From the NCBI RefSeq assembly GCF_030758955.1, contig NZ_CP132360.1:2777817-2841816 (forward strand): a stretch of 64,000 nucleotides of DNA, written 5' to 3'. The stretch is from Agrococcus beijingensis. Lineage in GTDB: Bacteria; Actinomycetota; Actinomycetes; Actinomycetales; Microbacteriaceae. The first letter of the stretch is position 1; each line of letters opens with the position of its first letter. The position numbers were made by a program, and so were the translations under genes. Below the pieces are notes generated by a model. That model was not told the origin of the DNA and did no database searches. It saw nothing but the letters and a program-made list of their open reading frames with translations. Below, one piece after another: positions 3,958 to 50,350 of this stretch.

Positions 3958-3966
3958 GACGGCGAC

Positions 3967-4797: not shown

Positions 4798-4798
4798 T

Positions 4799-5671: not shown

Positions 5672-6474
5672 GAGAGCGCCTCTCCCCGGATGGACGGGTG
5701 CCAGAACAGCAGGCGCCGCTCGGCGAATCGGGCCAGCACGTTGACGAGCAGGCCGAGGATGCCGGTCACGATGACGTAGGCGTACATGACGGGCACGTTG
5801 CCCGACTGGCGCGCGGTCTCGAACAGGCCGCCGATGCCGTCGAAGCTGATCAGCAGCTCGCCGGTGACGGTCAGGATGAGGGCGACGGATGCCGCCAGCC
5901 GCAGGCCGGTCATCGCGTAGGGCAGCGTGGTGGGCCAGACGACGGTGCGCACCTCGGTCACGCGCCGGAAGCGGTAGGAGCGAGCGGTGTCGCTCGCGAC
6001 GGGGTCGACGTCCTGCACGCCGGCCAGCACCTGGATGAGCACCTGCCAGAAGCTCGCGTAGACGACGAGCAGCAGGGTCGAGGCCATGCCGGTGCCGAGC
6101 AGCAGCACGGCCACCGGGATGAGCGCCACCGAGGGCACGGGGCGCAGGAACTCGATGGTCGAGGCGGTGAACTCGCGCAGGAAGGCGGAGGAGCCGATGA
6201 CGACGCCGAGCACGACGCCGGCGACGAGGGCGATCGCGAGGCCGATGCTCCACGTGAGCACCGTCTCCCCGACAGCGATCCAGAAGGCCCCGGTGCCGAG
6301 CGCGCTGACGAGGGCGGCGAGCATCTCGGAGACCGGCGGCAGGTAGCGGGCGTCGACCAAGCCGACGCGCGGCACCACCTCGAGGAGGAGGAAGAGGATG
6401 GCGACCCCGCCCGCGCCGAGCACCCAGCTGGGGATGCTCGGCGCGGAACGGGTGCCGGCGGCGAGTGACGTCAC
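5668..6474 (-). CDS. ABC importer permease (first of pair)
   Basis: 268 residues with the same six-helix layout and an EAA-like loop at VASDTARSYRFRRVTEVRTV. It starts with GTG at 6474, overlapping the lipoprotein stop (GTGA), and its stop overlaps the next permease. Two non-identical permeases of this type, with an SsuA/NMT1-like binding protein, form heterodimeric channels in sulfonate, nitrate or aromatic-acid importers. The order here is binding protein, permease, permease, ATPase, IclR regulator. Confidence 0.86.
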   Translation of the reverse strand: MTSLAAGTRSAPSIPSWVLGAGGVAILFLLLEVVPRVGLVDARYLPPVSEMLAALVSALGTGAFWIAVGETVLTWSIGLAIALVAGVVLGVVIGSSAFLREFTASTIEFLRPVPSVALIPVAVLLLGTGMASTLLLVVYASFWQVLIQVLAGVQDVDPVASDTARSYRFRRVTEVRTVVWPTTLPYAMTGLRLAASVALILTVTGELLISFDGIGGLFETARQSGNVPVMYAYVIVTGILGLLVNVLARFAERRLLFWHPSIRGEALS

Positions 6475-7463: not shown

Positions 7464-7549
7464 GAGCTGTTCTCCTTTGAACACCGCCGAGGGACACGGC
7501 GATCGGACGCGACACTCGCGGAACTGACCGCTGTGCGAACGAGTGTGCT

Positions 7550-7563
7550 TAGTGAGAACACTA
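7550..7563. promoter_or_regulatory. Palindrome upstream of the importer operon
   Basis: TAGTG-AGAA-CACTA is a perfect 5-bp inverted repeat 87 bases upstream of the binding-protein start. It lies in the 161-base gap after pobA and is a candidate operator, possibly for one of the IclR proteins. Confidence 0.4.
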
Positions 7564-7624
7564 GGAGCGCGAATCGACGGGTGTCAACCTGGAGCGCGCG
7601 CCGTGACCCGATCGTGATGCGACG

Positions 7625-8812
7625 TCACGCATCCGTCGGCATCGGCCAGCCCGTGTACGCCTCGGCGAGGTACGTGCGGCCGGCCTCCGACTCCACCACC
7701 GAGCGCAGCTCGCCGAGCTGGCGCTGCCGATCGAACGCCGAGGCGTCGGGCGAGACGTGGAGCATGCTCGTCATCCACCACGAGAAGTGCTGCGCCTTCC
7801 AGATCCGCGCCAGCGCCGTCTGGGCGTAGGCGTCGAGCAGCCGCTCGTCGCGGCTCAGCAGCAGCGCCCGGAGCGCCCGCGAGAGCACCACCACATCGGC
7901 GACCGCGAGGTTCAGCCCCTTCGCCCCGGTCGGCGGCACGGTGTGCGCGGCGTCGCCGACCAGCGCCACGCGGCCGCGCCGCAGCTCGTGCGCGACGAAG
8001 CTGCGGAACCGCAGGATGTCGCGCTGGAAGATCGGGCCGCGCTGCAGCGGCGTGCCGAGCACCCTCGCCTGCAGGCGCTCCCACAGCTGCTCCTCGGTCG
8101 CCGCGGCCGGATCCTCGGCGGGGTCGCACTGCAGGTACATGCGCTGCACCGTCTCGCTGCGCTGACTGATGAGCGCGAAGCCGTCTGGCGAGTTGCTGTA
8201 GATCAGCTCCGACGCGCTCGGCGGCGCCTCGCACAGGATGCCGAACCACGCGAAGGGGTACTCGCGGAAGTAGTCGTCGGCACGCGATGCCGACACCGCC
8301 TGGCGGGCGACCGAGCGCGAGCCGTCGGCACCGACCACGAAGTCGGCCTCGATGTGCAGGGCCGCGCCGTCCGCATCCTCCGCGACGACGCGCGGCGATC
8401 CGGTGTCGGCGTGCTCGACCCGCATCGCGGTGACGCCGAACCGCAGGTCCTGGCCCTCGCCGAGACGAGCGGCGATGAGGTCGGCGAGCACCTCGTGCTG
8501 CGGGTAGAGCCAGACGCTCCGGCCCACGAGCGCCGGGAAGTCGATGCGGTGGCCCTCGCCGGCGAACCGCAGCTCGATCCCGTCGTGACGGTGGCCGTCG
8601 GTCCGCACCCGGGTCGAGCCGCCCGACTGCTCGAGCAGCTCGACCGTGCCCTGCTCGAGGATCCCGGCGCGGATGGTGCTCTCGATCTCCTCACGGCTGC
8701 GCCGGTCGAGCACGATCGACTCGATGCCGTCCTTGGCCAGCAGGTGCGACAGGAGCAGGCCCGCGGGCCCGGCTCCGATGATCGCGACTCGGGTGCGTAC
8801 GGTGGTCGCCAT
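7625..8812 (-). CDS. pobA: 4-hydroxybenzoate 3-monooxygenase
   Basis: 395 residues, the usual PobA length. It hydroxylates 4-hydroxybenzoate to protocatechuate using FAD, NAD(P)H and O2. Visible are the FAD dinucleotide motif IIGAGPAGLLLS near residue 10, the DG motif VVGADGS near 157, and the GD motif LVGDAAHTVPPTGAKGLN near 285. Start ATG 8812 (MATTVRTRVAII) is the only one giving the family N-terminus; the frame extends upstream without homology. It is divergent from the IclR gene at 8904 and feeds the pca genes immediately beyond. Confidence 0.93.
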   Translation of the reverse strand: MATTVRTRVAIIGAGPAGLLLSHLLAKDGIESIVLDRRSREEIESTIRAGILEQGTVELLEQSGGSTRVRTDGHRHDGIELRFAGEGHRIDFPALVGRSVWLYPQHEVLADLIAARLGEGQDLRFGVTAMRVEHADTGSPRVVAEDADGAALHIEADFVVGADGSRSVARQAVSASRADDYFREYPFAWFGILCEAPPSASELIYSNSPDGFALISQRSETVQRMYLQCDPAEDPAAATEEQLWERLQARVLGTPLQRGPIFQRDILRFRSFVAHELRRGRVALVGDAAHTVPPTGAKGLNLAVADVVVLSRALRALLLSRDERLLDAYAQTALARIWKAQHFSWWMTSMLHVSPDASAFDRQRQLGELRSVVESEAGRTYLAEAYTGWPMPTDA

Positions 8813-8891
8813 GGCGTCTCCCTCGCTCGTCTCGCGGGCAGCGCCCGCTTCGTCGCCGCCAGTCTGCCGCGCCGGCACCGGCCGCGCGGCA

Positions 8892-8897
8892 TAGGGT
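8892..8897 (+). promoter_or_regulatory. Leaderless -10 element of the pobR-like gene
   Basis: TAGGGT ends six bases before GTG 8904; no ribosome-binding site precedes the start. Confidence 0.4.
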
Positions 8898-8903
8898 GCG
8901 GAG

Positions 8904-9665
8904 GTGACCGACGGGCTCCTCGACCGAGCGCTGCGCGTGCTCGCCGCGTTCCACGAGGACGCGGCCGAGCTCTCGGCGGCGCAGCTCGCCCAGCGCACGG
9001 GCATCGCGCTCTCCAGCCTGCACCGGCTGCTGGCGACGCTGGTGGCGCAGGGCCTGCTCATGCGGGTGCCCGGGCACCGCTACGCGATCGGAGCCCGGCT
9101 GTGGGAGCTCGGCGAGCTGTCGCCCCTGTCGCTGCGGCTGCGCGAGACGGCGCTGCCGCACATGATGCGCCTCTACGACGCGACGGGCGAGAACGTGCAC
9201 CTCGCGGTGCTCGACGGTTCGACGCCCGCGACGAGCGACGCGCTCTTCGTCGGCCGGGTCACCGGTCGCGCCTCGATCGCGACCATCAGCCGCATGGGCA
9301 GCCGCGAGCCGCTGCACACCACCGGCGTCGGGAAGGCGCTGCTGGCGACCCGCGACGAGCCGTGGCTGCGGCAGTACTTCGAGCGCGCTCTGCTGCCCCA
9401 GACGACGCGATCGCTCGTGACGGAGCTGGCGTTGCGGGAGGATCTCGACCGCACCCGGGCGCGCGGCTACGCGGTCACGCGCGAGGAGATGACGCTCGGC
9501 AACATGTCGTTCGCCGCCGCGCTCGGCCGGGTCGACGGGCTGCCGCCCGTGGCGATCGGCGTCGTCGTGCACCTCGAGCGCGCCGAGGGCCGCCGGCTCG
9601 CCCCGCTCGTCGTGCAGGCCGCGCGCGAGCTGCGTGCGGCGCTCGAGGCATCGCAGTCTCACTGA
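8904..9665 (+). CDS. IclR-family regulator, PobR-like
   Basis: 253 residues. A winged helix-turn-helix spans residues 1-65 (LSAAQLAQRTGIALSSLHRLL) and the IclR ligand domain carries MGSREPLHTTGVGKALLA. The start is GTG 8904 with a -10 hexamer six bases upstream. It is divergent from pobA and precedes pcaH, so it probably controls pobA and perhaps pcaHGBDC. It is the second IclR gene of the cluster and only distantly similar to the one at 3169-3957, suggesting separate responses to 4-hydroxybenzoate and to a downstream intermediate. Confidence 0.82.
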   Translation: MTDGLLDRALRVLAAFHEDAAELSAAQLAQRTGIALSSLHRLLATLVAQGLLMRVPGHRYAIGARLWELGELSPLSLRLRETALPHMMRLYDATGENVHLAVLDGSTPATSDALFVGRVTGRASIATISRMGSREPLHTTGVGKALLATRDEPWLRQYFERALLPQTTRSLVTELALREDLDRTRARGYAVTREEMTLGNMSFAAALGRVDGLPPVAIGVVVHLERAEGRRLAPLVVQAARELRAALEASQSH

Positions 9666-9759
9666 GCGGGAATCGAGGCGAGTCGAGCGCCGCCGGGGTG
9701 TGACGCTGGACTCGTCCGCCGGATGCCCCGAGCCCGGCGCTCGCACGCAAGGAGGCCCC

Positions 9760-10614
9760 ATGCCCATCGAGCCCGACGACGAGGCGTTCTCGTCACCCGT
9801 GGCCCTCGAGCCCGTCGCCGCTGCGCCCGAGTCGCTGCTGGCGTCGGCCGACATGCCGTCGCAGCAGCAGATCACCCGCGAGATCGGCGAGCTGCACGCC
9901 GACGCCGAGCGACGGGTCGCCGAGGGCGAGGAGCTGCCCGCCACGCTGTACGACTTCGCGCCCTATCGCTCGAGCATCCTGCGACACCCCACGAAGGACC
10001 CGCGACTGGTCGACCCCGAGACCATCGAGCTGTGGTCCCCCGCCTACGGCCAGCGCGACGTCGCGAAGGTCGAGTCGGATCTCACGCTGCAGCACTCGGG
10101 CGAGCCGCTCGGCGAGCGGATCACCGTGCAGGGCCGGCTGCTCGACAGCTGGGGCCGGCCGCTGCGCAACCAGCTGCTCGAGATCTGGCAGGCCAACGCG
10201 GCGGGCCGCTACATCCACCAGCGCGACCAGCATCCCGCGCCGCTCGACCCGAACTTCACCGGCGCCGGCCGCATCGTCACGAACGACGACGGCGAGTATG
10301 CGTTCACGACGATCAAGCCCGGCCCCTACCCCTGGAAGAACCACGTCAACGCGTGGCGGCCGGCGCACATCCACTTCTCGGTCTTCGGCACCGGCTTCAC
10401 GCAGCGGATCATCACCCAGATGTACTTCCCCAGCGACCCGCTGTTCGCCCTCGACCCGATCTACAACTCGATCCGCTCGCAGCGCGATCGCGACCGGCTG
10501 ATCGCCGCGTACGACCACGACCTGACGGTGCCCGAGCTCTCGATGGGCTACCGCTGGGACATCGTCGTCGACGGCCCCGACGCCACCTGGTTCGAGCCGG
10601 AGGACGAGCACTGA
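9760..10614 (+). CDS. pcaH: Protocatechuate 3,4-dioxygenase beta subunit
   Basis: 284 residues. It opens protocatechuate between the two hydroxyl groups to 3-carboxy-cis,cis-muconate. The non-haem Fe(III) ligands are all visible: Tyr151 (AGRYIH), Tyr190 (PGPYPW), His203 and His205 (RPAHIHF). The N-terminal 35 residues are longer and more acidic than usual. ATG 9760 has a strong AAGGAGG five bases upstream. First gene of pcaHGBDC; its stop overlaps the pcaG start by one base. Confidence 0.93.
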   Translation: MPIEPDDEAFSSPVALEPVAAAPESLLASADMPSQQQITREIGELHADAERRVAEGEELPATLYDFAPYRSSILRHPTKDPRLVDPETIELWSPAYGQRDVAKVESDLTLQHSGEPLGERITVQGRLLDSWGRPLRNQLLEIWQANAAGRYIHQRDQHPAPLDPNFTGAGRIVTNDDGEYAFTTIKPGPYPWKNHVNAWRPAHIHFSVFGTGFTQRIITQMYFPSDPLFALDPIYNSIRSQRDRDRLIAAYDHDLTVPELSMGYRWDIVVDGPDATWFEPEDEH

Positions 10615-11207
10615 TGCCCGCAGAGACCAGCGCGAGCAGCGCGCGCGACCGACGCGGCACGGCGCCGCTCGAGCCCACCGCCGGCCAGACCATCGGGCCG
10701 TTCTTCGCGTTCGGGCTGCAGTACCCCAAGATGCACGAGCTCGCGTTCCCGCACAGCCCGGGCGCGATCGTGCTCGGCGGCACCGTGCTCGACGGCGCGG
10801 GTGCACCCATCCCCGACTCCTGCGTCGAGATCTGGCAGGCCGACGAGCACGGCGCGATCCCCCGGGCTCGCGGGAGCCTCCGGCGCGACGACCACACCTT
10901 CACCGGCTTCGGCCGCGCGTTCACGACCGACGAGGGGCACTTCGAGTTCTGGACCCGCGACCCGGGGCCGGTCGACGGCGCGGCGCCCTTCTTCGCCACG
11001 ATCGTCTACGCCCGCGGGCTGCCGCACAAGCTGCACACCCGCATCTACCTGCCGGAGGATCGCGAGCGCCTCGACGCCGACCCGCTGCTGGCCTCGCTCA
11101 CGCCGGTCGAGCGCGAGACGCTCATCGCCACGCGCCTGCCGGACGGCTCCCTGCGCCACGACATCCGGCTGCAGGGCGAGCGCGAGACCGTCTTCATCCG
11201 CTTCTGA
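10614..11207 (+). CDS. pcaG: Protocatechuate 3,4-dioxygenase alpha subunit
   Basis: 197 residues, paralogous to PcaH but lacking its Fe ligands (the Tyr position is in DEHGAIPRARG), as expected for the structural alpha subunit. TAGQTIGPFFAFGL near residue 22 is the characteristic N-terminal motif. ATG 10614 overlaps the pcaH stop (TGATG), implying coupled translation and 1:1 assembly. It is followed by a 74-base gap before pcaB containing a run of nine C. Confidence 0.92.
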   Translation: MPAETSASSARDRRGTAPLEPTAGQTIGPFFAFGLQYPKMHELAFPHSPGAIVLGGTVLDGAGAPIPDSCVEIWQADEHGAIPRARGSLRRDDHTFTGFGRAFTTDEGHFEFWTRDPGPVDGAAPFFATIVYARGLPHKLHTRIYLPEDRERLDADPLLASLTPVERETLIATRLPDGSLRHDIRLQGERETVFIRF

Positions 11208-11281
11208 CGAACGACCGCTCCGATACGCTCGGCGCCGAGGCGGCCCGGGCGCAGCACCCCCCCCCGGCCGCGAGGAGGAAC

Positions 11282-12691
11282 GTGACCGCCATCGATGACG
11301 GCCTGCTGTCGCCGCTCACGGTCGGCACCGACGCGTCCGTCGCCGACGCCTCGGTGCTCGACGCGCTCGTGGCCGCCGAGGTGGCGCTCGTGCGAGCGCT
11401 CGGCACCGCGGGGCTCGCGCCCGCGCACGCGGTCGATGCGGTGTCGGATGCGCTCGGCTGGCAGGGCGCGGGGCTCCCGTGCCTGCTCCACGGGATCGCC
11501 CTCCAGCCCCTGGCGGCCGCAGCCGTCGCGGGCGGCAACCCGGTCATCCCGCTCGTCCCGGCGCTGCGCGCCGCGGTGCCCGACGCCGCGCGCGCCTGGG
11601 TGCACCGCGGAGCAACCAGCCAGGACATCCTCGACACCGCACTCATGCTCACCGCGCGAGCGGCGGCCGACCAGGCGCTGCACTCCCTGGCCGCGACCGA
11701 GCGGGCGCTCTCAGCACTCGCGGTCGAGCACCGCGACGCGGTCGCGGCCGCTCGCACGTTGACGCAGCACGCCGTGCCGACCACGGTGGGGCTGCGGGCC
11801 GCCACCTGGCTGCGGGGCGTGCGCCGCGCCGCCGAGCGCCTCGCGGCTGCCCGCGCGGCGCTGCCGGCCCAGCTCGGCGGCGCGGGCGGCACGCTCGCCT
11901 CGTTCGTCGAGCTCGCCCGCGATGCGGTGGAGCCGAGCGGCACCGTCCGCACGATCGTCGAGGCGTTCGCGGCCGAGACCGGCCTGGCGGTGCCGGACGC
12001 CCCCTGGCACGTCACCCGCTGGCCGGTCACCGAGCTCGGCGACGCGCTCGTGCAGGCGATCGACGCCGTCGGCCGGATCGCCACCGATGTCGCCACGCTC
12101 AGCCGCACCGAGATCGGCGAGCTCGCCGAGGGCTCCGGCGGCGGCTCGTCGGCGATGCCGCAGAAGCAGAACCCCGCGGCGGCCGTGCTGATCCGCTCGG
12201 CGGCACTGCGCGCGCCGCAGCTCGGCGCCACGCTCCACCTCGCGTCGGCGCTCGCCGGCGATGAGCGGCCCGATGGCGCCTGGCACGCGGAGTGGCCGAC
12301 GCTGCGCGAGCTGCTGCGCCTGGCCCTCGGCGCGACCGCGCACGCGGCAAGCATGACCGCGGGCCTCCGCGTCGACCTCGACGCGGTGGCGCGCAACCTC
12401 GGCGCCACGCGCGGGCTCCTCGTCGCCGAGCGGCTCTCGCTCGCGCTCGGTCCCATCATCGGGGCGGATGCGGTGCGTGCGATCGTCGGGTCGGTGGCCG
12501 CGGGCGGCGACCTCGCCCACGCTGTCCGCGCGGCGCTCGCCGAGGCCGGCGCGGCGGACGTCGACGTCGAGCGCCTCATCGACCCGCAGGAGTACACCGG
12601 GCTCGCCGGAGGGCTCGTCGACGAGGCCGTGAGCGGCACCCGCCCCGCCACGCCCAGCACTCGCCACGATCGGCAGCAGGAGGCCGAATGA
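11282..12691 (+). CDS. pcaB: 3-carboxy-cis,cis-muconate cycloisomerase
   Basis: 469 residues, fumarase/aspartase superfamily. It lactonises 3-carboxymuconate to gamma-carboxymuconolactone. The family signature GSSAMPQKQNP is at about residues 288-298, and HRGATSQDILDTA lies near residue 105. The start is GTG 11282 after GAGGAGGAAC. The stop overlaps pcaD (ATGA). Length and motifs look intact. Confidence 0.92.
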   Translation: MTAIDDGLLSPLTVGTDASVADASVLDALVAAEVALVRALGTAGLAPAHAVDAVSDALGWQGAGLPCLLHGIALQPLAAAAVAGGNPVIPLVPALRAAVPDAARAWVHRGATSQDILDTALMLTARAAADQALHSLAATERALSALAVEHRDAVAAARTLTQHAVPTTVGLRAATWLRGVRRAAERLAAARAALPAQLGGAGGTLASFVELARDAVEPSGTVRTIVEAFAAETGLAVPDAPWHVTRWPVTELGDALVQAIDAVGRIATDVATLSRTEIGELAEGSGGGSSAMPQKQNPAAAVLIRSAALRAPQLGATLHLASALAGDERPDGAWHAEWPTLRELLRLALGATAHAASMTAGLRVDLDAVARNLGATRGLLVAERLSLALGPIIGADAVRAIVGSVAAGGDLAHAVRAALAEAGAADVDVERLIDPQEYTGLAGGLVDEAVSGTRPATPSTRHDRQQEAE

Positions 12692-29593: not shown

Positions 29594-29690
29594 ACCAGTC
29601 CATGTGTCACCAGCCCATGTGTCACCAGTCCATGCACGTATGCCACGGCTGGGCCGTGGTGCGCACCTTCCTCATGAGGCGACTCATGAG
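29594..29690 (+). promoter_or_regulatory. Candidate oriT/iteron region upstream of the MobF relaxase
   Basis: Three direct 15-bp repeats ACCAG[T/C]CCATGTGTC start at 29594, 29609 and 29624, the last diverging at its end. They are followed by a perfect 7-bp hairpin CCACGGC-TGG-GCCGTGG (29643-29659), the palindrome GGTGCGCACC (29658-29667), and CTCATGAG twice (29671 and 29683). The relaxase start codon follows at 29701. MobF origins of transfer commonly pair iterons with a hairpin near nic. Confidence 0.5.
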
Positions 29691-29700
29691 GGAGGCCGAG

Positions 29701-32700
29701 ATGAAGGGCGGGGTGATCCTGTTCCGCGGCACAGGTGCTGCCGCGCGCCGCTATGTCGAGGCCGACCGCTCCCGCGCGGACGAGTACTACCTCGGCGCGG
29801 ACGACGCCGTGGCTGAGTACGCGGTGCTCGACTCTCACGGTGAGATCGCTTCCACTCGTTCGCTGACCGCTGAGGAGTATGAGGGGTGGGTGGACTGGAC
29901 GGAACCTGTCACGGGCAAGTCGATGGGCACCCCACGCAATCCCGGCGAGAGGTCGAAGGGGTCGCCGTTGTTCGCAGAGATGACGATCAACGCCCCCAAG
30001 AGCCTTTCGGTCGCTGCCGCGCTCCACCCCGAAGTGTCGGCGGCGCTGGACGCGGCGCAGCAGGACGCGCTGGGAGAGATTCGACGCTGGCTTGGCCAGC
30101 ACTCGGTGACAAGGGTCGGGCCGCGCGACCAACGGGAAGTGCTGTCTATCGAGCGGATGCAGGTCGTCGGCATCACTCACAAGACATCGCGGGCTGGTGA
30201 TCCGCACCGGCATATCCATATGCAGATCGGTACTCGGGTGTTTGCGGCTGGGAAGTGGCGGGCGCTCGATACTGCGGCGTTGTTCAAGCAGCAGGGCGCG
30301 ATCCGCGCTCTCGGCACCGCGGTCATCGCCGCGCACCCGCACCTCGCACAGACCCTCGCAAAGCACGGCCTGACGCTCGACCCAGTGTCCGGTGAGGTGG
30401 TGGAGTTGCAGCCATTCAACGGGGTGATGTCGAAGCGTTCGGCCCAGATCAGACGCAACCTTGACCGCCTCGAAACCGAATGGGAGCAGCAGCATCCCGG
30501 AGAGGGGCTCGGCCCGGTGATGACAGCGCGGCTGCAAGGCATCGCCTGGACACACGAACGGCCTGGAAAGAAGCCCGCTGACTTGAAGAATGAGCAGTGG
30601 TGGGTGCAGGAACTCGCCGACGCCGGATACGACCCCGCTGCGCGTCAACGCCGCACCGTGCAGCGTTCGGTGTTGTTGGATGATCTTGCGGTGCAGGAGG
30701 TTGCATCCCGTGCGCTGGATCGCTGCGCCGCTGCATCATCGGCATGGACGAGGCACACAGTGCAGGAGCACGTCACCCGCATCACCACCGAACACGGCGT
30801 ACGAGCGACCCCCGCTGAGTTGCGCGAGTTCATCACGATGGCGACCGTGCTGGCGGTCTCGGATTGCTTCTCCGTGCTCCCACCGGATGCGGCGATGCCG
30901 GAGCATGTCGCGCACCTGACCAGCCTCACCGTGGTCGCCGCCGAAACCGCGCTCCGCGACCAACTCACTGCCAGCACACCGAAGCAAGAGCCCGCCCACC
31001 CGGAGGTGACCGAGGCCGCACGCGCGGCGGGGCTGGATGACGGGCAGGCGGTCGCTGCTGCTGCGGTTGCGTCGTCTGATCCGTTGGTGATCGTAGAGGG
31101 CGCTGCGGGGAGCGGGAAGACGACGATGCTGCGCACCGCCATCGACGTCTCCGCCGAGCACGGGCGGGGATCGCGGGTGGTTGCGCCGACGCTGCGCGCG
31201 GCGCAGGTCGCGCACGACGAACTCGGCATACCCGCCACGAGCGTTGCAGCACTCGTGCACGCGCACGGATGGAGATGGAACCGCGACGGCGTATGGACAC
31301 GCCTCACTCGCGGCGACACCGACCCCGACACCGGGCGAACCTACACCGGCCCGCCGAAAGAGGCGCGGCTGTTGCGAGGTGAGCGGGTGATTGTGGACGA
31401 GGCCGGGATGCTCGACCAAGACACCGCCCACGCCCTCCTCACTGTGACCGCCGAGGCAGGCGCAACTATCGCGCTCGTCGGCGACCGCGCCCAGTTGCCC
31501 GCCGTCGGCCGGGGTGGTGTGCTCGACATGGCCGCCCAGATCAGAGGCCGCACCTACGATATGACTGAACTGCACCGGTTCGCTAACGCTGCATACGCGG
31601 CCCTCACGTTGACGATGCGCGACCGTGAGAACCCCGGCGACGTGTTCGACCGGCTCACCGCGATGGGGCTGGTGACGCTGCACCTGGACGAGGAGCAGGC
31701 CCGCGACCAAATCACGGAGCACGCTACCCAAGGTGATGCGATTACGGTCGCCTCGAACGACGAAGCCGCTGCCCTGAACGAGCGCATCCGCACAGGACGG
31801 GTCGAGCGTGGTGAGGTCGATGACACGATCACAGTGACTGGCAGCGATGAACTGCCTATCGGTCGGGGGGATCTGATCCAGACGCGGAAGAACGACACCG
31901 CGCTTGACGTGGCGAACCGGCAACAGTGGATCGTCCAGCACGTCACCGACGACGGTACCATGTACGCTCGCGAAACCGGCAGCGGGCGCAGAAACCCGCG
32001 CACCGTCGTCCTCCCGCCTGAGTACGTGAGCGAATACGCGCACCTGTCCTATGCCGCGACTGCGTATGGCGTCCAAGGCGCAACCGTCAACGTCTCACAC
32101 ACGATGCTCACAGCGGCGTCGAGCGCAGCAGGCGTCTACGTCGGTATGACACGAGGCCGCGAGCACAACCGGTTGCATGTCATTGCCGAGGATATGGCGG
32201 ATGCGCGGGCGCAGTTCGTTGATGCGGTGAAGCGTGACCCCGCCGACCGCGGCCTCGACCATGCCACCGCACAGTCCGTCGAAGCAGTACGCGGCATCGT
32301 CAAAAACGGCCCGATCCGGCGCGTCACCGAAGAACTCGTCCGACTCGACAGGGAGGCCCAGCGTGCCGAACGAGCGGCTGAGCGGTGGGAGCAGACCGCG
32401 AACAGGCTCGACGCCCAACTAGCCGCACACACGGTCGAGAAGGAGAAGGACGCCGCTGTGCTTCGTCAGGCCGAGGAAGAAGCGGCGCGGGTGCGTGCCG
32501 AGGTCACCGCGCCTCTCGCGGAGCAAGCCGAACGCGACGGCGAGGCATACCTTGCCAGCGTCGAGGAAGAGAGGACGGCGAGCGCGCGCCTCGCCACTGT
32601 TGGGCGGTTCGGGCGACGCAAGGCTCGCGACGAGCACCGTGCTGTGAGCGACCAAGCAGCAACCATCCGAACACATCTTCGCGATGCGTGGGAGGCTGAA

Positions 32701-33156
32701 CCGCCACGAACCCCCAGCGCACTACCCGATTGGGCTGCACAGGTCGCAGAACGGCGAGCAGAAGCCGATCCCCGCGTAAGCGAAGCCGCCCAAGCTGTAA
32801 AGGCTGCGCGCACCGAACGAACCGCGACCGGTGAACGTCACCGCAACGAGCGCCTGGCGCTCTTGGCCCACGAGTACGGGCCTGAGAACGCTCGCGCACA
32901 CCAGTACGGGATGCACGCCCTCAACCCACACCGTAACGCCCGCGACGCCCGCGCACGCGCAGCCATGCTTCGTACCGAGAGTGAGAAACTCCGCAGCCTC
33001 CCGGTGAACGATGCCGCCAAACTCATCGAGAGCAAACGCGTCGAGCGAGCGCGCGCGCAGCAACAAGCCGAACAGCGTCAACGGCGGATCTCTTCGCCCG
33101 AACCATCCTCGCGTCAAGGCCCAGATTCGCCGCGTGAGCGCGGAATCGGGTTCTGA
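29701..33156 (+). CDS. MobF-family relaxase/helicase (TraA/TrwC-like)
   Basis: About 1151 residues. The N-terminal TrwC relaxase domain shows the catalytic-Tyr region RADEYYLG and the metal-binding HUH motif PHRHIHMQI near residue 165. A RecD2-like helicase follows with Walker A EGAAGSGKTTML near 462, Walker B VIVDEAGML and the late motif VQGATVNVSHTML. The C-terminal 270 residues are an Arg/Glu-rich coiled coil. It would nick and unwind DNA for conjugative transfer. ATG 29701 (MKGGVILFRGTG) fits the family N-terminus and has GGAGG upstream; an in-frame start at 29602 falls in the repeat region. No type IV secretion genes are in the window, so the element looks mobilisable or decayed. Confidence 0.85.
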   Translation: MKGGVILFRGTGAAARRYVEADRSRADEYYLGADDAVAEYAVLDSHGEIASTRSLTAEEYEGWVDWTEPVTGKSMGTPRNPGERSKGSPLFAEMTINAPKSLSVAAALHPEVSAALDAAQQDALGEIRRWLGQHSVTRVGPRDQREVLSIERMQVVGITHKTSRAGDPHRHIHMQIGTRVFAAGKWRALDTAALFKQQGAIRALGTAVIAAHPHLAQTLAKHGLTLDPVSGEVVELQPFNGVMSKRSAQIRRNLDRLETEWEQQHPGEGLGPVMTARLQGIAWTHERPGKKPADLKNEQWWVQELADAGYDPAARQRRTVQRSVLLDDLAVQEVASRALDRCAAASSAWTRHTVQEHVTRITTEHGVRATPAELREFITMATVLAVSDCFSVLPPDAAMPEHVAHLTSLTVVAAETALRDQLTASTPKQEPAHPEVTEAARAAGLDDGQAVAAAAVASSDPLVIVEGAAGSGKTTMLRTAIDVSAEHGRGSRVVAPTLRAAQVAHDELGIPATSVAALVHAHGWRWNRDGVWTRLTRGDTDPDTGRTYTGPPKEARLLRGERVIVDEAGMLDQDTAHALLTVTAEAGATIALVGDRAQLPAVGRGGVLDMAAQIRGRTYDMTELHRFANAAYAALTLTMRDRENPGDVFDRLTAMGLVTLHLDEEQARDQITEHATQGDAITVASNDEAAALNERIRTGRVERGEVDDTITVTGSDELPIGRGDLIQTRKNDTALDVANRQQWIVQHVTDDGTMYARETGSGRRNPRTVVLPPEYVSEYAHLSYAATAYGVQGATVNVSHTMLTAASSAAGVYVGMTRGREHNRLHVIAEDMADARAQFVDAVKRDPADRGLDHATAQSVEAVRGIVKNGPIRRVTEELVRLDREAQRAERAAERWEQTANRLDAQLAAHTVEKEKDAAVLRQAEEEAARVRAEVTAPLAEQAERDGEAYLASVEEERTASARLATVGRFGRRKARDEHRAVSDQAATIRTHLRDAWEAEPPRTPSALPDWAAQVAERRAEADPRVSEAAQAVKAARTERTATGERHRNERLALLAHEYGPENARAHQYGMHALNPHRNARDARARAAMLRTESEKLRSLPVNDAAKLIESKRVERARAQQQAEQRQRRISSPEPSSRQGPDSPRERGIGF

Positions 33157-39616: not shown

Positions 39617-39994
39617 ACGCCAACCCTGCTCGCCGCACTGAGCGGCGAGACCGCTCGGCCGAGGGAGGTAGCGGGCCTCGACGGGTGAACGCACGGGAAC
39701 CGGAGGCGCAAGTGATCGTGCTCAACGGCGGATCAAGTTCGGGAAAGACGTCTATCGCACGAGCACTGCAGGAATCCCTTCCCGGAACCTGGCTGACCTT
39801 TGGGGTGGATACGTTCATCGAAGCGTTACCCGGCCGGGGCGACAGCCTGAAGTCCGGAATCAGCTACGGCCCTGATGGCACTGTCGTGGTGACGGAGCAG
39901 TACAAACGGCTGGAACGCGCTTGGTACTCAGCACTGCATACGCTGGCGCACTCGGGTGCCAACATCATTCTTGACGAGGTGCTGCTTTCCGGAA
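39613..39994 (+). pseudogene. Chloramphenicol phosphotransferase-like kinase, truncated
   Basis: P-loop NGGSSSGKTSIARALQESL, then FGVDTFIEALP and NIILDEVLLSG are recognisable CPT-like segments. Family members run about 180 residues; here homology ends at LSGNEG where a 40-bp repeat begins, and the frame stops 17 codons later. The C-terminal half with the substrate and adenine contacts is missing, so activity is unlikely. Confidence 0.6.
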
Positions 39995-40034
39995 ACGAAG
40001 GACCACCGCTACACCACTACTTGGGACTTGACCC
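39995..40034 (+). repeat. 40-bp repeat copy A (insertion-sequence end remnant)
   Basis: Forty bases identical to the reverse complement of 50183-50222. The outer 27 bases look like a terminal inverted repeat ending in ...GGGACTTGACCC. It separates a truncated kinase from a truncated WYL gene. Confidence 0.75.
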
Positions 40035-44488: not shown

Positions 44489-46057
44489 CTATGCGCGCCA
44501 GATGAACTCGACCCGGCGTGCGAGCACTGCCGCGCGGTGCGCGTCTCGGCGCACGTGGAAGTCCTCGGTGCTCTCGTTGCGGCGCTTGGGGACAGCGGTC
44601 ATCATGTCTGCGGGGTGAGCGTGCACGAGTACCGCTTGCAGGATCAGGCTCGCGGCCTGGTACTGCCACATCGGGGTACGCCCCTTCCACTCAGCCGCAA
44701 CCGTGGTCATGTCGATGTTGAGCCCTGCGTGCTGCTCGGGCATCGTCGCCGCATGCTCGCGGCGGGTCGACTCGATCCGCTCCGCAATCCTCGCACGTTG
44801 CCGCACCCACATGGTCTTGTCGATCAGGCCGTCGTAGTAATCATCATCCAGCCTCGCCAAGCGTTCCCTATCCGCGTCGAGCGTCGCCGCGAGCCCGACC
44901 CTGGCCGCAAGGTCTCTGCCGGAGGTTCGGTGTTTCGTGGGGTGGAGGGTGATCTGCTCGAACGTCGCACGCACTGCTTCCTCCACGAGCTTCTCGATTT
45001 CGGCAGAGCGGATCGAACGGGTGCACCCGCCTGGGGTCGGCTGGATGCACTGGTACACGCCGCCCCGGTGAATCATCGCCGTCCCGCACAGTGAGCAGCG
45101 AATCAACCCCGAGAACGGGTACATCCGCACCGCCGAACCACTTCCGGGTTGGTGGAAGTTCCGGGCCTTCTTCCTGGCATCGAGTACGTCGGAGACTTGC
45201 TGCCAGGTGTCCTCGTCAACAATCGCGGGCCACGCCGCTTTCACCTGCATTTTCGAGGTTCGCGCGCGGCTCCCGTCCGGCATGACGGGCCGGTACTCGC
45301 GCACGCCCTTGTTGGAGGGGTTGTAGAGCACCATCTTGAGCGTCCGATCCGACCACCTGCATCCGTGGGTGGTGAGGATGCCGCGCTCGTTCCACTCCTT
45401 CCGTATTCGGTACAGGGAGTCACCGGCGAGCACCCGCTGGTACATCTCGACCACCAGCGGCCCCGTCACCGGATCAATCGTGAGCGCGCCTGCCTCGGCC
45501 CGGTATCCGAACGGCACCCGGCCGCCGTGCCAGGCACCCTCGATGGCCTGCTGTTTCGCTGCCCGTGCGACACGACGGGCAGTATCCGCCGATGACTTGT
45601 TCGCCATCGCGACCAGCACCCTGGCCATCGCCACATCAGAATCCGTATCCAACCGGAGCGAGCCGGTCACGGAGCGGACGGTGAACCCGCCGAGCACCTT
45701 CGCGTCGATGAGGTCTTCCAAATCTCTCGGGTCGCGCACCGCCCGATCCAAGTCATACGCGACCATCACCTGCGCCTGGCCGTCCGCGAGATTCTTGAGC
45801 ATGGCGCGGAACTGCGGGCGAACAACCCGCCGCACCCGCTCACCCGAAGAGAGTGTGATCGTGCGCTGCTTGAACGCCGACGTGTCGTTTTCTCGGAATA
45901 CGGCTGCGACTTCCCAGCCGTGGGCTTCGGCGTAGGCGCGGCAGTCGACCTCTTGCCGATCCACGCCGCGTTCGGTGCCCTCGGGGTCGTCACTGATCCT
46001 GACGTACACCACCGCCCGCAACGCTTCCGTGGTCTGTTCCTGCTGTTCGTGGCCCAT
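44489..46057 (-). CDS. Large serine recombinase (integrase)
   Basis: 522 residues. N-terminal resolvase domain with the nucleophile Ser in VVYVRISDDPEG (about residue 21) and the AYDLDRAVRDPRDL helix; a recombinase domain (GRVPFGYRAEAG); a zinc ribbon with CSLCGTAMIHRGGVYQC and a further Cys; then a coiled coil (DDDYYDGLIDKTMWVRQRAR). All parts of a functional integrase seem present. It starts at 46057, about 35 bases from a relaxase gene that has lost its 5' part, so it probably lies at one end of an integrated element. Confidence 0.9.
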   Translation of the reverse strand: MGHEQQEQTTEALRAVVYVRISDDPEGTERGVDRQEVDCRAYAEAHGWEVAAVFRENDTSAFKQRTITLSSGERVRRVVRPQFRAMLKNLADGQAQVMVAYDLDRAVRDPRDLEDLIDAKVLGGFTVRSVTGSLRLDTDSDVAMARVLVAMANKSSADTARRVARAAKQQAIEGAWHGGRVPFGYRAEAGALTIDPVTGPLVVEMYQRVLAGDSLYRIRKEWNERGILTTHGCRWSDRTLKMVLYNPSNKGVREYRPVMPDGSRARTSKMQVKAAWPAIVDEDTWQQVSDVLDARKKARNFHQPGSGSAVRMYPFSGLIRCSLCGTAMIHRGGVYQCIQPTPGGCTRSIRSAEIEKLVEEAVRATFEQITLHPTKHRTSGRDLAARVGLAATLDADRERLARLDDDYYDGLIDKTMWVRQRARIAERIESTRREHAATMPEQHAGLNIDMTTVAAEWKGRTPMWQYQAASLILQAVLVHAHPADMMTAVPKRRNESTEDFHVRRDAHRAAVLARRVEFIWRA

Positions 46058-46073: not shown

Positions 46074-46094
46074 CCTACTCGTGTGAGAGGTAGG
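46074..46094. promoter_or_regulatory. Inverted repeat at the recombinase/relaxase junction
   Basis: CCTACTC-GTGT-GAGAGGTAGG is an imperfect inverted repeat between the recombinase start and the headless relaxase. It is a candidate attachment half-site or recombinase operator. Confidence 0.35.
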
Positions 46095-47119
46095 TGCGTT
46101 TACAGAACCTCGGCTACGCAGTGACGGCTCATAGGGCGCAAGGCATCACGACCGACACCTCGCATGTCCTCGTTGATCCGTCTACGACCAGGGAGAACCT
46201 GTATGTCGCGATGACTCGCGGCAGGCACACGAACCTCGCATATGTCGCCACCGACTTCCCCGACGACAACCACACCACCCCGCACCCGGCGGATGACCCG
46301 GATGCGACCGCGCGGAGCGTGCTCTATGGAGTGCTGCAGCACGTCGGCGCGGAACTCTCCGCGCACGAGACGATCATCGCCGAACAGGAGGCCTGGGGGT
46401 CGGTGGCGCAGCTCGCGGCGGAGTACGAAACGATCGCGCAAGCCGCCCAACACGACCGCTTCGCCACCCTCATCCGTCAATCCGGCCTCACCCCGGACGA
46501 AGCAGAAGACACGATCCACTCCGACGCGTTCGGGGCACTCACCGCCGAACTCCGCAGAGCCGAAGCGAACCACCACAACATCGACGCCCTCATCCCGCGG
46601 CTCGTCGCAGCACGCGGCTTCGGCGACGCCGACGACATCGCCTCCGTCATCCACCACCGTCTTACCCGAGCCACCGCCAGACCCGCAGGTTCCGGGCGCA
46701 CCCGCAAGGCGCCCCGACTGATCTCCGGCCTCATCCCCGAAGCCGCCGGGCCCATGAGCGCCGAGATGCGGAATGCCCTCACGGAGCGACGCGAGCTGAT
46801 CGAACAACGCGCCGTGGCCGTCGTCGACCACGCCCTCACCGAGCGTCACGAATGGGCGCTCGCACTCGGAAACATGCCGCCTGAGACGAGAGCCGTGGCC
46901 ACGTGGAAACAGCAGGCGAGAACCGTGGCCGCGTACCGGGACCGCTACGGCATCACCACACGCACGCCGCTCGGCCCGGCACCCGACAGTGACGCACAGA
47001 AGATCGACGCCGCACGAGCGAAAGCCGCTCTCGCAAGACTCCGCGACCTCGCTAGTGCCGAACGACACGACGAGCCATCTCGGACTGCGCGGCGCGAGGG
47101 CGCGGGCCTGGGCCTGTGA
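46094..47119 (+). pseudogene. MobF relaxase, C-terminal part only
   Basis: Begins mid-helicase at LGYAVTAHRAQGITTDTSHV and YVAMTRGRHTNLAYVATD (late SF1 motifs) and continues into the coiled-coil tail (about 340 residues). Relaxase and Walker motifs are absent. It is a different relaxase from the one at 29701-33156. Its 5' part is lost next to the serine recombinase, consistent with integration into a relaxase gene; the missing part is not in the window. Confidence 0.75.
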
Positions 47120-47272
47120 CCCATTTCCCTTCCGAATGTCGCCGGTGCGTCGTATCTTGGTAGTTGAGGCGGATTTCTCCTTGATATGACGCTCCTCGGG
47201 GCAGGCCGCAAGGCCACTCACACACGCACCGCTTCCGACGATCCGTTGTGCATGTGAGAGGAAACCCCCGTC

Positions 47273-47629
47273 ATGATCCGCGAACTCTGGACCGTCAGCG
47301 TCCACACCCGCGCATTCCTGCGCCGCTACATGCCCACCAACATCTTGCTCGACGCCATCCGCACCCGCCGAGGCTTGAAATGGGGTGTACCAGCGATACT
47401 CCTCGCCGCGCCCTACCTCCTGGCCGCGAGCACATTCACCACCCTGATCGCAGACGGTGGTCCAGGCTGGCTCAACCTCCTGGTTTTCCTGTGCCTGTGG
47501 AACACAATGAAGTTCATCATCATGGGGCCGGTCAGCCTGATCCTGCTGGGTCGCGCACGCCTGCGGGAAGGAGCCGCCGTACGCGCCGAACGAAGAACAA
47601 TGGCCGAGTCGGCCGAGCAAGCGACCTGA
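47273..47629 (+). CDS. Small membrane protein linked to actinobacterial plasmid relaxases
   Basis: 118 residues with two hydrophobic segments (about 37-60 and 66-90) and basic ends. RYMPTNILLDAIRTRRGLKW is a highly characteristic stretch; close relatives are often annotated sulfate permease although far too short for one. They typically follow MobF relaxase genes, as here. GAGGAAA precedes ATG 47273. Function unknown. Confidence 0.65.
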   Translation: MIRELWTVSVHTRAFLRRYMPTNILLDAIRTRRGLKWGVPAILLAAPYLLAASTFTTLIADGGPGWLNLLVFLCLWNTMKFIIMGPVSLILLGRARLREGAAVRAERRTMAESAEQAT

Positions 47630-47714
47630 CCGGCTCGACTCGCTTCGTGTCCCAGAGACATCGCTGTGATCCTAAAGACCTCCATCTCCACTGCACTGTT
47701 GTCGACATCCACGG

Positions 47715-47720
47715 TAAGAT
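47715..47720 (+). promoter_or_regulatory. Candidate -10 element of the peptide operon
   Basis: TAAGAT lies 37 bases before ATG 47758, the best -10 hexamer in the gap after the small membrane protein; the -35 is unclear. Confidence 0.3.
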
Positions 47721-47757
47721 TCAAGAGTTCCCTGTCGTAAACCGCCATTGGAGTCCA

Positions 47758-47922
47758 ATGAACGCATCCACGTCGTTGTTCGGACTGCTGGCAGTGGACA
47801 TGCAGCGTAATGAGCCCGAACCTAGGCCCCGTCCGCAGCCTTCAACGCTGACGCACACAATCGAGACATCTGATCACGGGTTCGGGTTTTCCCCGCTGGT
47901 GATGTCTCGGATGGAGAGCTAA
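47758..47922 (+). CDS. Putative graspetide precursor peptide A
   Basis: 54 residues. N-terminal leader NASTSLFGLLAVDMQ, a Pro/Arg/Glu linker (EPEPRPRPQP), then the core block STLTHTIETSD at residues 29-39 and an aromatic, Gly-rich end (HGFGFSPLV). Thr30, Thr32, Thr34, Ile35, Glu36, Ser38 and Asp39 are identical, at the same residue numbers, in peptide B. Hydroxyl donors alternating with acidic acceptors are what ATP-grasp enzymes of graspetide pathways link into macrolactones or macrolactams. TTGGAG precedes ATG 47758; the stop TAA overlaps the ATG of peptide B. No homologue was searched; the call rests on pairing and context. Confidence 0.68.
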   Translation: MNASTSLFGLLAVDMQRNEPEPRPRPQPSTLTHTIETSDHGFGFSPLVMSRMES

Positions 47923-48089
47923 TGCAGGCAAGAGAAGCCTCCACCTCCTTGTTTGCCGAGTTAGCAAGCTACCCGCAAGGCGGTGTCGATGGTATTCGCG
48001 GGACAGCAACGATCACAGAGACGATTGAATCGTCCGATACCGATGAGGCAGTCACGCAGCTCCTCCTAAGTTACGTCGGGCCTCGTTGA
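47922..48089 (+). CDS. Putative graspetide precursor peptide B
   Basis: 55 residues. The leader REASTSLFAELASYPQG shares ASTSLF and a following LA with peptide A. The core block ATITETIESSD occupies residues 29-39, aligned to peptide A without gaps, and is extended by TDEAV. Acidic acceptors are richer here (Glu33, Glu36, Asp39, Asp41, Glu42). Start overlaps peptide A (TAATG) and the stop overlaps the TTG of the ATP-grasp gene, so peptides and enzyme are translationally coupled. Two paralogous substrates for one enzyme is a known graspetide arrangement. Confidence 0.7.
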   Translation: MQAREASTSLFAELASYPQGGVDGIRGTATITETIESSDTDEAVTQLLLSYVGPR

Positions 48090-49030
48090 GTTCCAGAGCA
48101 CCCATCCTCATCGGTGAACGTGATGATCCTCATATCGCAGCTGTCGAGGATGCCCTCATAAGATGCGGAAATCGCCCACTGATCTTCGACCTTGAGTCAG
48201 TCATGAGCGATGGTCTTTCGTTAAGCGATGAAGGTTACGCCGTGAAAATTGACGGCGCTTGGCGCGACCTCACCGATGCGCGATTTGGGTGGTTACGACG
48301 TCTTCACCGGGCAGACTGGGGTCTTGGCATCGAAGCAGGCTCACTGAGAGCTTTGGAGCTTGGCACTTGGTATTCGGCGTACTCATGGCTTCTGGACGAC
48401 TCCAAAGTAAGTTGGATAACAAGCCCAGTGGCACTGCGCAGAGCTGAATCGAAACTCTGGCAATGGAAGGCGGCCGTCAGGCTTGGTATTCCATACCCGA
48501 GAACCCTAGTGACGACGAGTAGTGAGGCAGTCGCGACATCCTTCTCGAACGAGGTCATTGTTAAGCCTCTCGGTACGGGCCAGTTCATCCAGGACGGTGA
48601 AACAATGACGGTCTACGCCGAGTCGATGATGCCTACAGACATTCGACTTAACGCTCTGAACGCAGCGCCATTCATTGTCCAGGAACGGATACCGGCTGCT
48701 AAGCATCTTCGCGTTGTCACCGTCGGCGATCGTAGCTGGGTGGCAACGCTAGATGTTGACCTAACTGCTCCCGCTGACTGGCGGCGGCGTTCACGCAATC
48801 ATTCTGCGTTCAAAGAAGCCCCTGACGCGAGCTCGATAGCGCCCACAGGCGCGCTGACAATTGCGAGTCATCTCGGACTCGGATACTCGAGCCAAGATTG
48901 GGTCCAAACGCCTGATGGCGAGGTGTACCTTCTCGACGTGAACCCATCGGGGCAGTGGCTCTTCCTTCCGGAGCGAGTGGGTACTGCGGTCACTGATGCC
49001 CTCGCAGATCTACTCGTGGTGGCCACATGA
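48086..49030 (+). CDS. ATP-grasp ligase, graspetide maturase type (MvdC/MvdD-like)
   Basis: 314 residues, the normal size for RiPP ATP-grasp ligases. N-terminal pre-ATP-grasp domain (PILIGERDDPHIAAVEDALI, then RFGWLRRLHRADWG), central KLWQWKAAVRLGIPYPRTLV, ATP-binding VIVKPLGTGQFI, and the C-terminal metal site VYLLDVNPSGQWLFL, where the family usually has EVNPNGQW. These enzymes activate Asp/Glu side chains as acyl-phosphates and join them to Ser/Thr (ester) or Lys (amide) of a leader-bound peptide. TTG 48086 overlaps the peptide B stop (TTGA). A RimK-like ligase acting on another protein is the main alternative, less likely given the two upstream peptides. Confidence 0.82.
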   Translation: MSSRAPILIGERDDPHIAAVEDALIRCGNRPLIFDLESVMSDGLSLSDEGYAVKIDGAWRDLTDARFGWLRRLHRADWGLGIEAGSLRALELGTWYSAYSWLLDDSKVSWITSPVALRRAESKLWQWKAAVRLGIPYPRTLVTTSSEAVATSFSNEVIVKPLGTGQFIQDGETMTVYAESMMPTDIRLNALNAAPFIVQERIPAAKHLRVVTVGDRSWVATLDVDLTAPADWRRRSRNHSAFKEAPDASSIAPTGALTIASHLGLGYSSQDWVQTPDGEVYLLDVNPSGQWLFLPERVGTAVTDALADLLVVAT

Positions 49031-49695
49031 GAAAGCAGACTTTTCGCGACAAGACAAGACGTACATTCGCCGAAGTTCGCATGGTTGTGAGTACGGCGCT
49101 GGGTCTCTTCGCTGGCCGGAGAGTTTGGATGCCAAAGGAAGCGGCACCTAAAACGAAGTGGATAGACGAGTGCCCCAAACGGAACCTTCCCTTGGCGCGC
49201 TCGTCCTATGACGAGCGGCTGAAAAGCGAATCAGCGGGCATCGAGGCGGTTCGGCGCCGTGCAGAGTTCGCACTCACAGCAATCATTGCGGCCATCGGAC
49301 TGAGCACTGCCGCCTTCGAGCGACTCTGGGCCGTTGCCTCGAACTCCACCAGCTTGCTCGTCATCTGGTTGGTCGGCGTTCTCATTGTCGTCATGGCAGT
49401 TCTGGTTTTTGCCGGTGTTGCCGTGTCGAACAAAGTCCTTGGAGTTGTCCAGGTAGAAGACTTCATTCACCTTCGTGATCCCCGCCGAGAGGAGCTTCGA
49501 CAGTACGTTCTGGCAGTGCATACGACGTCGAAGACTCGCCGAGCGATGGTCACGGTCTTCCGTGACGGCTTCTTAATCGCGCTAGTCGGACTAACGCTGC
49601 TCGCGATCGCTCACACCGTATCTTGGGCGGTTCCCCTGGACGATGCTCCAACGCCTGTGGATGTCAACATCATAAGTCCTTCGCCCGCACCATAG
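49027..49695 (+). CDS. Membrane protein of the graspetide operon
   Basis: 222 residues. A basic N-terminal segment (RKQTFRDKTRRTFAEVRM) is followed by membrane helices at about 85-103, 108-133 and 180-202, and a short Pro-rich C-terminal tail. No protease, ABC or MFS motif is visible. ATG 49027 overlaps the ATP-grasp stop (ATGA). As the only other gene in the operon it may release, export or give immunity to the mature peptide; this is inference from position. SLATT-like membrane effectors are another possibility. Confidence 0.65.
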   Translation: MRKQTFRDKTRRTFAEVRMVVSTALGLFAGRRVWMPKEAAPKTKWIDECPKRNLPLARSSYDERLKSESAGIEAVRRRAEFALTAIIAAIGLSTAAFERLWAVASNSTSLLVIWLVGVLIVVMAVLVFAGVAVSNKVLGVVQVEDFIHLRDPRREELRQYVLAVHTTSKTRRAMVTVFRDGFLIALVGLTLLAIAHTVSWAVPLDDAPTPVDVNIISPSPAP

Positions 49696-49779
49696 CTTTG
49701 AGCGGCGACACGAAACACCCCACTGCCAGACGTTAGAGAATGACGATTCCCTAGTGATCTCGTCCGGTCAACGTGACGT

Positions 49780-50196
49780 CTACGAAGACGGCCAGTGGGC
49801 TCGAACTTGCTTGGCAATGAGTTCTGTCTTGGCGAGAGGGAGCTCTTCAACGGGACCCCATTCGGTGCCGCCAGAGTCCAGGGTTCCTGCGACGTGGAAG
49901 TGAACGTGCCTGATCGACTGGCTTGCGGCCTCACCGTTGTTCTGCCAGACGGAGATACCTGGACGCTGGTAAGCGGCATCGATAGCCGTCGCTGCGTTCC
50001 TTACCTCGACCATCAGCGCCGCACACTCATCATCTGTCAAGTCGAGAATGGTCTCTCTGTGCCTGGTAGGGATGACGAGAAGGTGCGGTTTCCCACGCTG
50101 TTCCTGCGTAACCATAACCGCTGTCAACGTGTTCCTTGTTACGAAGGTGAACGGTCGACTTCCTTTGAGGTAGGCGCAGAACGGGTCAAGTCCCAA
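49780..50196 (-). CDS. HIT-family hydrolase, N-terminus altered
   Basis: About 138 residues of a histidine-triad protein: FCAYLKGSRPFTFV, LLVIPTRHRETILDL and the catalytic triad RHVHFHVAG. The family hydrolyses nucleotide-linked phosphoramidates or Ap4A-like substrates. Family members usually begin with about four residues before FCAYL; here those codons come from the 40-bp repeat (TTG start, LGLDP), so the native start was replaced at that junction. It may still be translated. Confidence 0.7.
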   Translation of the reverse strand: MGLDPFCAYLKGSRPFTFVTRNTLTAVMVTQEQRGKPHLLVIPTRHRETILDLTDDECAALMVEVRNAATAIDAAYQRPGISVWQNNGEAASQSIRHVHFHVAGTLDSGGTEWGPVEELPLAKTELIAKQVRAHWPSS

Positions 50197-50222
50197 GTAG
50201 TGGTGTAGCGGTGGTCCTTCGT
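50183..50222 (-). repeat. 40-bp repeat copy B (insertion-sequence end remnant)
   Basis: Exact inverted copy of 39995-40034, about 10.2 kb away. It lies between the HIT gene and short direct repeats next to the tRNA. Confidence 0.75.
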
Positions 50223-50256
50223 GTCGCGACTCAGGTGAGACCTATGTCGCGACTCA
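50222..50256. repeat. Two direct 12-mers next to tRNA-Ser
   Basis: TGTCGCGACTCA occurs at 50222-50233 and 50245-50256, a 23-base period. The pattern resembles subterminal repeats of an insertion-sequence end. It forms the last accessory sequence before the tRNA. Confidence 0.4.
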
Positions 50257-50265
50257 TCACAAGAG

Positions 50266-50350
50266 CGGAGGATGGGGGATTCGAACCCCCGAGGGCTTGC
50301 ACCCAACACGCTTTCCAAGCGTGCGCCATAGGCCACTAGGCGAATCCTCC
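50266..50350 (-). tRNA. tRNA-Ser (anticodon GGA)
   Basis: 85 bases on the minus strand. Acceptor stem GGAGGAT/ATCCTCC with discriminator G, anticodon stem-loop CACGC-TTGGAAA-GCGTG (anticodon GGA), a long variable arm and a TTCGAAT T-loop. No CCA is encoded. Its 3' end faces the accessory island, the usual side for integration into tRNA genes. Confidence 0.93.

Follow-up and report, generated by a model that had tools for sequence, protein, structure and literature searches.

The window analysed here is a 64,000-nucleotide stretch of the single-contig, 2.89-Mb genome of Agrococcus beijingensis (NZ_CP132360.1, positions 2,777,817 to 2,841,816). It contains an operon of four genes encoding two short candidate precursor peptides (A and B), an ATP-grasp ligase, and a membrane protein, situated within a piece of a mobile island (Table 1). 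Re-reading of the sequence confirmed that the genes overlap, with the junctions TAATG, TTGA, and ATGA. The four genes very likely form a graspetide cluster, i.e., a cluster for a ribosomally synthesized and post-translationally modified peptide (RiPP) matured by an ATP-grasp enzyme.

Table 1. Features of the operon and of the island piece around it (positions in the window).
Feature	Position	Strand	Basis
Precursor A, 54 aa	47758..47922	+	sequence reading; kept in relatives; dN/dS
Precursor B, 55 aa	47922..48089	+	sequence reading; kept in relatives; dN/dS
Graspetide-synthetase-type ATP-grasp ligase, 314 aa, TTG start	48086..49030	+	profile, PDB, fold, tree
Companion membrane protein, 222 aa, three hydrophobic segments	49027..49695	+	conserved position, family alignment
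SLF leader element of precursor A, residues 6-8	47773..47781	+	alignment of 30 precursors
SLF leader element of precursor B, residues 9-11	47946..47954	+	alignment of 30 precursors
Predicted core of A, residues 29-39, STLTHTIETSD	47842..47874	+	alignment, unit comparison
Predicted core of B, residues 28-41, TATITETIESSDTD	48003..48044	+	alignment, unit comparison
Island membrane protein, 118 aa, two hydrophobic segments, upstream of operon	47273..47629	+	found in island relatives
Mobile-island piece, corresponding to bases 4024-8098 of locus L018	46109..50183		shared DNA with island relatives

The precursor pair and the ATP-grasp enzyme

The two precursors are paralogous, as the original prediction had it. 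Residues 29–39 align without gaps (STLTHTIETSD versus ATITETIESSD, 7 of 11 identical), ASTSLF is present in both leaders, and the shared block and the leaders are conserved in relatives. Neither of the best ungapped identities between A and B, 8 over 11 residues and 6 over 6 residues, was reached in any of 2000 composition shuffles. A chance resemblance is rejected on this ground and on the enrichment of the motif near ATP-grasp genes, described below.

The third protein, which contains the segment DVNPSGQW, was compared with graspetide maturases as the prediction had suggested, and these rank first in profile, sequence, and fold searches. Among NCBIfam models it scores best with TIGR04187 (129.8 bits), followed by MvdC (102.1) and MvdD (87.8), versus 31.4 bits for RimK, where the cut-off is 143.4. 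A sequence search of the PDB gave six matches, namely, MdnB, AMdnB, PruB, MdnC, PsnB, and CdnC. The AlphaFold model, built on a 40-row alignment, has a predicted local distance difference test (pLDDT) score of 92.8, and chains of the same six proteins occupy Foldseek ranks 1–32, RimK beginning at rank 33. The predicted structure places the protein, by fold and subfamily, with the graspetide macrocyclases. In a midpoint-rooted tree of 51 rows (50 chosen loci and the window, with the outside row L059 on a long branch), 23 enzymes of the clade defined below, that of the window included, form one actinobacterial branch with support 100/100; the label "motif" in this tree takes in L033, where no precursor was seen, and L039, a Ser variant. 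The genome itself contains a single match to the enzyme.

The core motif and the membrane companion in relatives

A genome scan confirmed 111 stretches, from which 80 loci were kept. The 25 nearest loci (L017–L040 and L058; enzyme identity 33–100%) are referred to as the clade. An open reading frame (ORF) with the motif T-x3-E-[TS]-x-D adjoins the enzyme gene in 23/25 clade loci versus 0/55 other loci. Among ORFs of 25–150 residues in the 80 loci, which are partly redundant, the motif was found in 39 of 646 near an ATP-grasp gene versus 2 of 8249 elsewhere; the length limit missed paralogue A of L017–L019. Within the clade, homologues without an adjacent motif peptide, named in the prediction as the refuting case, are mostly absent, and the two clade loci that fail the strict pattern are L033 and L039. 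The L039 precursor has Ser in place of Thr, and the same precursor is carried by L101. Several loci contain two or three precursor genes. In a later class sample with 29 new loci, 17 were evaluated, and precursors were found at three of them, these being the three high-scoring clade members.

In an alignment of 30 precursors, most of them selected with a pattern that includes T, E, and D, the leader contains S/D-L/F-Y/F with L conserved in at least 90% of rows, while in the core E and D are invariant and T3 is conserved in at least 90%. One L035 precursor has Lys at position 3, also a possible donor. A profile search of a protein database returned 52 proteins at E ≤ 10, of which 49 reach E ≤ 0.01, some with two or three core units (P0121, P0122, and P0123 are precursors of this kind); P0121 has three T-x2-T-x3-E-x2-D-x-D units within 110 residues.

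For a comparison of core units, 84 sequences were pooled (two of them without a unit; 14 with two units and 2 with three), and 77 units were collapsed to 51 and numbered with the invariant Glu as position 7. The strict core T-x2-T-x3-E-x2-D-x-D fits 34/51 collapsed units, and T stands at position 0 in 38/51. The window precursors, with one core each, depart from it: A has S0 and G12, i.e., no last Asp, B has A0, and both have T at position 1. Ser or Thr at position 1 is present in all nine units that have neither at position 0, versus 9 of the 42 others (Fisher approximately 2e-5 by our own arithmetic, uncorrected for kinship), a pattern that fits an outer-ring donor able to slip by one residue. 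The A-type combination of P-1, S0, T1, and G12 occurs in 4/4 distinct sequences, and T-1 accompanies T1 and D12 in 12/13 B-pattern units. Judged by these sequences, the window pair represents a derived form of the wider core found three times in P0121, and the suggestion that it may mark an undescribed graspetide group is only partly supported. The prediction had been silent on this wider family core, as well as on the constant fourth-gene companion and the mobile island. The wider core corresponds to the thuringinin (group 3) core; the string TxxTxxxExxDxD did not occur in the main text of the open-access papers searched.

The enzyme gene is followed in 23/25 clade loci versus 0/55 others by a gene whose protein, measured from the earliest possible start, has 167–279 residues and contains two or three hydrophobic segments; three of the outside loci (L043, L086, L096) end 288–635 bases from the enzyme. 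In these 23 clade loci the companion starts from 73 bases before to 53 bases after the end of the enzyme match. It is missing from two clade loci, L039 and L032, the latter on a contig that stops after a further 419 bases; of the loci added by the later class sample, L099 has it, whereas L100 and L101 lack it. All 17 aligned members share R78, T84, T170, and R179. A fold search with the model of the fourth protein (mean pLDDT 76.6) gave no match at E ≤ 0.001, and neither Pfam nor PADLOC matched a family to the window copy. Single relatives have weak matches to the PADLOC "2TM effector" (E 0.009, 1/17) and to Pfam 8xMP. Kinship with PycTM was considered and dropped, as a precomputed PF18967 label on the relative P0224 was not reproduced. 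Our guess is that the protein exports the product or protects the producer. The 118-residue membrane protein upstream of the operon is probably not part of the pathway, since no match to it was found near L026 or L027.

Predicted products and alternative readings

The operon combines an ATP-grasp ligase of the macrocyclase subfamily with adjacent precursors that have a conserved leader and a core in which Ser, Thr, or Lys precedes Asp or Glu, as in the graspetide class. The case for a graspetide-type operon, as originally proposed, is carried by the maturase profiles, the fold, and the association of the motif with the clade enzymes. The reading of the conserved block as the likely ring-forming unit is also supported. 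The system is thus of a known kind, and what is unusual is the arrangement of the staple-forming residues in the pair.

Most likely, the enzyme binds the SLF-type leader of each 54–55-residue precursor and phosphorylates Glu and Asp side chains of the core. Attack by upstream Thr or Ser hydroxyls would then close nested side-chain esters with a loss of 18 Da per ring. The inner ring would join T3 to E7 and the outer ring T1 (or S0 in A) to D10, while B, with its additional T-1 and D12, may close a third ring between these residues. A is predicted to carry two rings and B three, with mass changes of -36 and -54 Da, respectively, because A-type units have P-1 and G12 whereas B-pattern units have T-1, T1, and D12.

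A serious rival to this prediction, which in our view falls a little short of an even chance, is that both paralogues receive the same two rings (T3–E7 and an outer Thr/Ser–D10) and that T-1 and D12 of B are not cross-linked. In its favor, most units of the family lack Ser or Thr at -1; on the other hand, T-1 and D12 are kept together in 12/13 B-pattern units and are absent from 4/4 A-type units, although these are close relatives and hence not independent.

It is rather unlikely that the cluster is a stranded remnant, no longer made after a recent break-up of the island. In favor of this reading, the island is scattered over three distant loci and the adjoining HIT gene is cut near its start. 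All four operon genes, however, are open and identical to the L017 copy, and in diverged relatives these genes are under purifying selection: in comparison with L020–L023, dN/dS is 0.17–0.30 for A, 0.24–0.40 for B, and 0.16–0.22 for the enzyme and the fourth gene, L021 and L023 being near copies of each other, so that these are three comparisons rather than four. Against L019, dN/dS is 1.3 for both precursors, each of which has five changes, and the differences from L018 are all replacements (two in A and one in B); these numbers are too few to weigh and do not speak in favor of selection.

A defence or conflict module, in which the pair and the membrane protein act as peptide and membrane effector rather than yielding a secreted natural product, seems to us distinctly improbable. 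It would accord with the ThsA, ThsB, and RmrA-like genes of the L018 island, with the ThsC-type HIT gene on the window piece, and with the weak effector and 8xMP matches and the PF18967 label mentioned above; but that label was not reproduced, and the fourth protein of the window has no Pfam, PADLOC, or fold match. Finally, a RimK-type ligase that extends a protein or peptide by amino acids rather than forming rings belongs to the same superfamily, supplies the next structures in the fold list, and is the source label ("RimK family alpha-L-glutamate ligase") of the homologues P0013, P0046, and P0070, but it is rejected as most improbable on the NCBIfam scores and the fold ranking, the co-conserved precursors with donor-before-acceptor cores also speaking against it.

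Several observations weigh against the graspetide assignment itself. Firstly, the enzyme scores below every curated NCBIfam cut-off (350 bits for its best model), and none of the four operon gene products has a Pfam match. Secondly, no recognizable precursor is seen at L033 in the approximately 1,070 bases available upstream, and the conservation of T3, E7, T/S8, and D10 is in part built into the alignment and the unit set. Thirdly, no conserved GG site was found in the A/B pair, GG at residues 20–21 of the window B being SG in L018 and SV in L019, and the P-h-h leader motif was not seen by eye in either leader; PMC8939145 gives each of the two features for about half of graspetide precursors, and they are not required. 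Finally, the membrane protein was not found at L039/L101 and L100, nor a protease or a recognized transporter in the operon.

Among known graspetides, the thuringinin type is probably a distant relative of the cluster, whose core is slipped and whose membrane partner is constant. The family core matches the thuringinin motif, some family precursors have three units (P0121), and a membrane protein is present at the locus. A membrane-protein cluster, number 18, is described in PMC8939145 as specific for thuringinin loci. In contrast, the window precursors have one core each, spread over two genes, with the first Thr at position 1 instead of 0 and with no last Asp in A.

Plesiocin (group 2) and its enzyme PsnB share with the operon a single ATP-grasp enzyme and its fold (7dro_A, TM 0.75/0.79), but identity to 7dro_A is 21%, and the window cores are not repeated and are spaced differently from the plesiocin core TTxxxxEE. 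The linkages of plesiocin are described as nested and hairpin-type (PMC13097080), a likeness to the nested esters predicted here. Microviridin MdnB and MdnC and chryseoviridin CdnC provide the best fold matches (5ig9, 7mgv); unlike microviridins, the operon has one enzyme instead of two and neither a PFFARFL leader nor a TxKxPSD core. The SAV_5884-family maturases (TIGR04187) are the best-scoring named family, but the score is far under its cut-off and no methyltransferase is present among the four operon genes.

Graspetides characterized so far are protease inhibitors according to PMC8939145, and any use assigned to the present products would be conjecture. The fullest form of our proposal is that one enzyme produces a bicyclic A (T3–E7, T1/S0–D10) and a tricyclic ladder B, T-x-T-x-T-x3-E-x2-D-x-D, which act with the membrane protein as a two-peptide system on a Thoeris- and relaxase-bearing island moving between actinobacterial genera; that all of this holds together is quite doubtful. 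The family nevertheless offers a natural series, comprising the strict core, a donor slipped by one, loss of the last acid, a Lys donor, and one to three cores. With donors and acceptors shifting beside homologous enzymes, the ring-partner rule of ATP-grasp macrocyclases becomes testable, and the membrane partner of 23/25 clade loci provides a handle on export or immunity.

Distribution and the mobile island

The genus, family, and class genome sets used here are samples. In the family sample, 13/398 genomes match the enzyme at E ≤ 1e-5 in 15 places, five of them (own genome included) at 58–100% identity and ten at 24–33%. In the class sample, 36/394 genomes pass 1e-30 and four (own included) pass 1e-90. 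No close copy was found in 23 other genomes of the genus, where one weak match reached 1.6e-4. Close copies, with 88–100% identity, are present in Leucobacter, Microbacterium, Actinotalea, Gulosibacter, and Rarobacter, and the occurrence of the same cluster at such identity across these genera points to recent horizontal transfer. In plasmid and phage collections, searched for close relatives, every match was below 60% identity, and Bacillus was absent among the best 60 of 75 plasmid records. A phage origin is rejected, as the sole IMG/VR match (L097) is the DNA of the Rarobacter locus L022, 100% over 7990 bases.

Shared DNA places the operon on an island that carries a relaxase and Thoeris genes and recurs in several actinobacterial genera. 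Its length is 12 kb or more; base 1 of L018 is the edge of the fetched stretch, and the first piece could extend further. L017, L018, L019, and L021 have nearly all of the fetched stretch in common, while L020, L022, and L023 share it from the operon rightwards, L023 also with a separate relaxase part. In L018 (Leucobacter chironomi) the island is continuous, in the order C5 methylase, TrwC-type relaxase, 118-residue membrane protein, operon, HIT, ThsA-macro, ThsB-TIR, and RmrA-like gene. Here, it is split over three distant loci: its bases 4024–8098 form the window piece (46109–50183), and its bases 1–4031 and 8091–12093 are situated at contig 2179656–2183687 and 2495812–2499814.

The HIT protein, whose window copy matches PADLOC ThsC2, is encoded at 49780–50196 (-), and the island break truncates it close to its start; in this genome, ThsA and the genes around it are located approximately 330 kb away. 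PADLOC's authors define Thoeris type II by the HIT protein (PMC8565338). In Agromyces allii (L026), a TIR-like ORF (assigned by eye), a ThsA relative (46%), and a HIT protein (51%) follow the operon in the other orientation, so that HIT, ThsA, and TIR-type genes stand beside the operon in two different orientations (L018:7698–9583 and L026:7798–9676). These neighborhoods would fit either hitch-hiking or a functional link.

Of the two breaks, one has an 8-base repeat, and the other has a TA between inverted repeats, next to the gene of a serine recombinase. This gene (Resolvase, Recombinase, Zn ribbon) is located at 44489–46057 (-), beside the relaxase break, and the inverted repeats GTGCGTTTAC[AC]GAACCTCGGC occur at each of the broken ends, which have a TA in common (approximately 46085–46109). 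Insertions followed by rearrangement would explain the three-locus split; a misassembly is also possible.

A scan for a tRNA insertion site at the right end of the island found none; a tRNA-Ser(GGA) gene lies at 50265–50350 (-), 82 bases past the right end of the island piece. A 43-base inverted repeat (39992–40034 and 50183–50225, 98% complementary) has one arm beginning at the right break. An ORF at 29602–33156 (+) encodes a relaxase/helicase-like protein of 1184 residues that matches part of the island relaxase with 31% identity.
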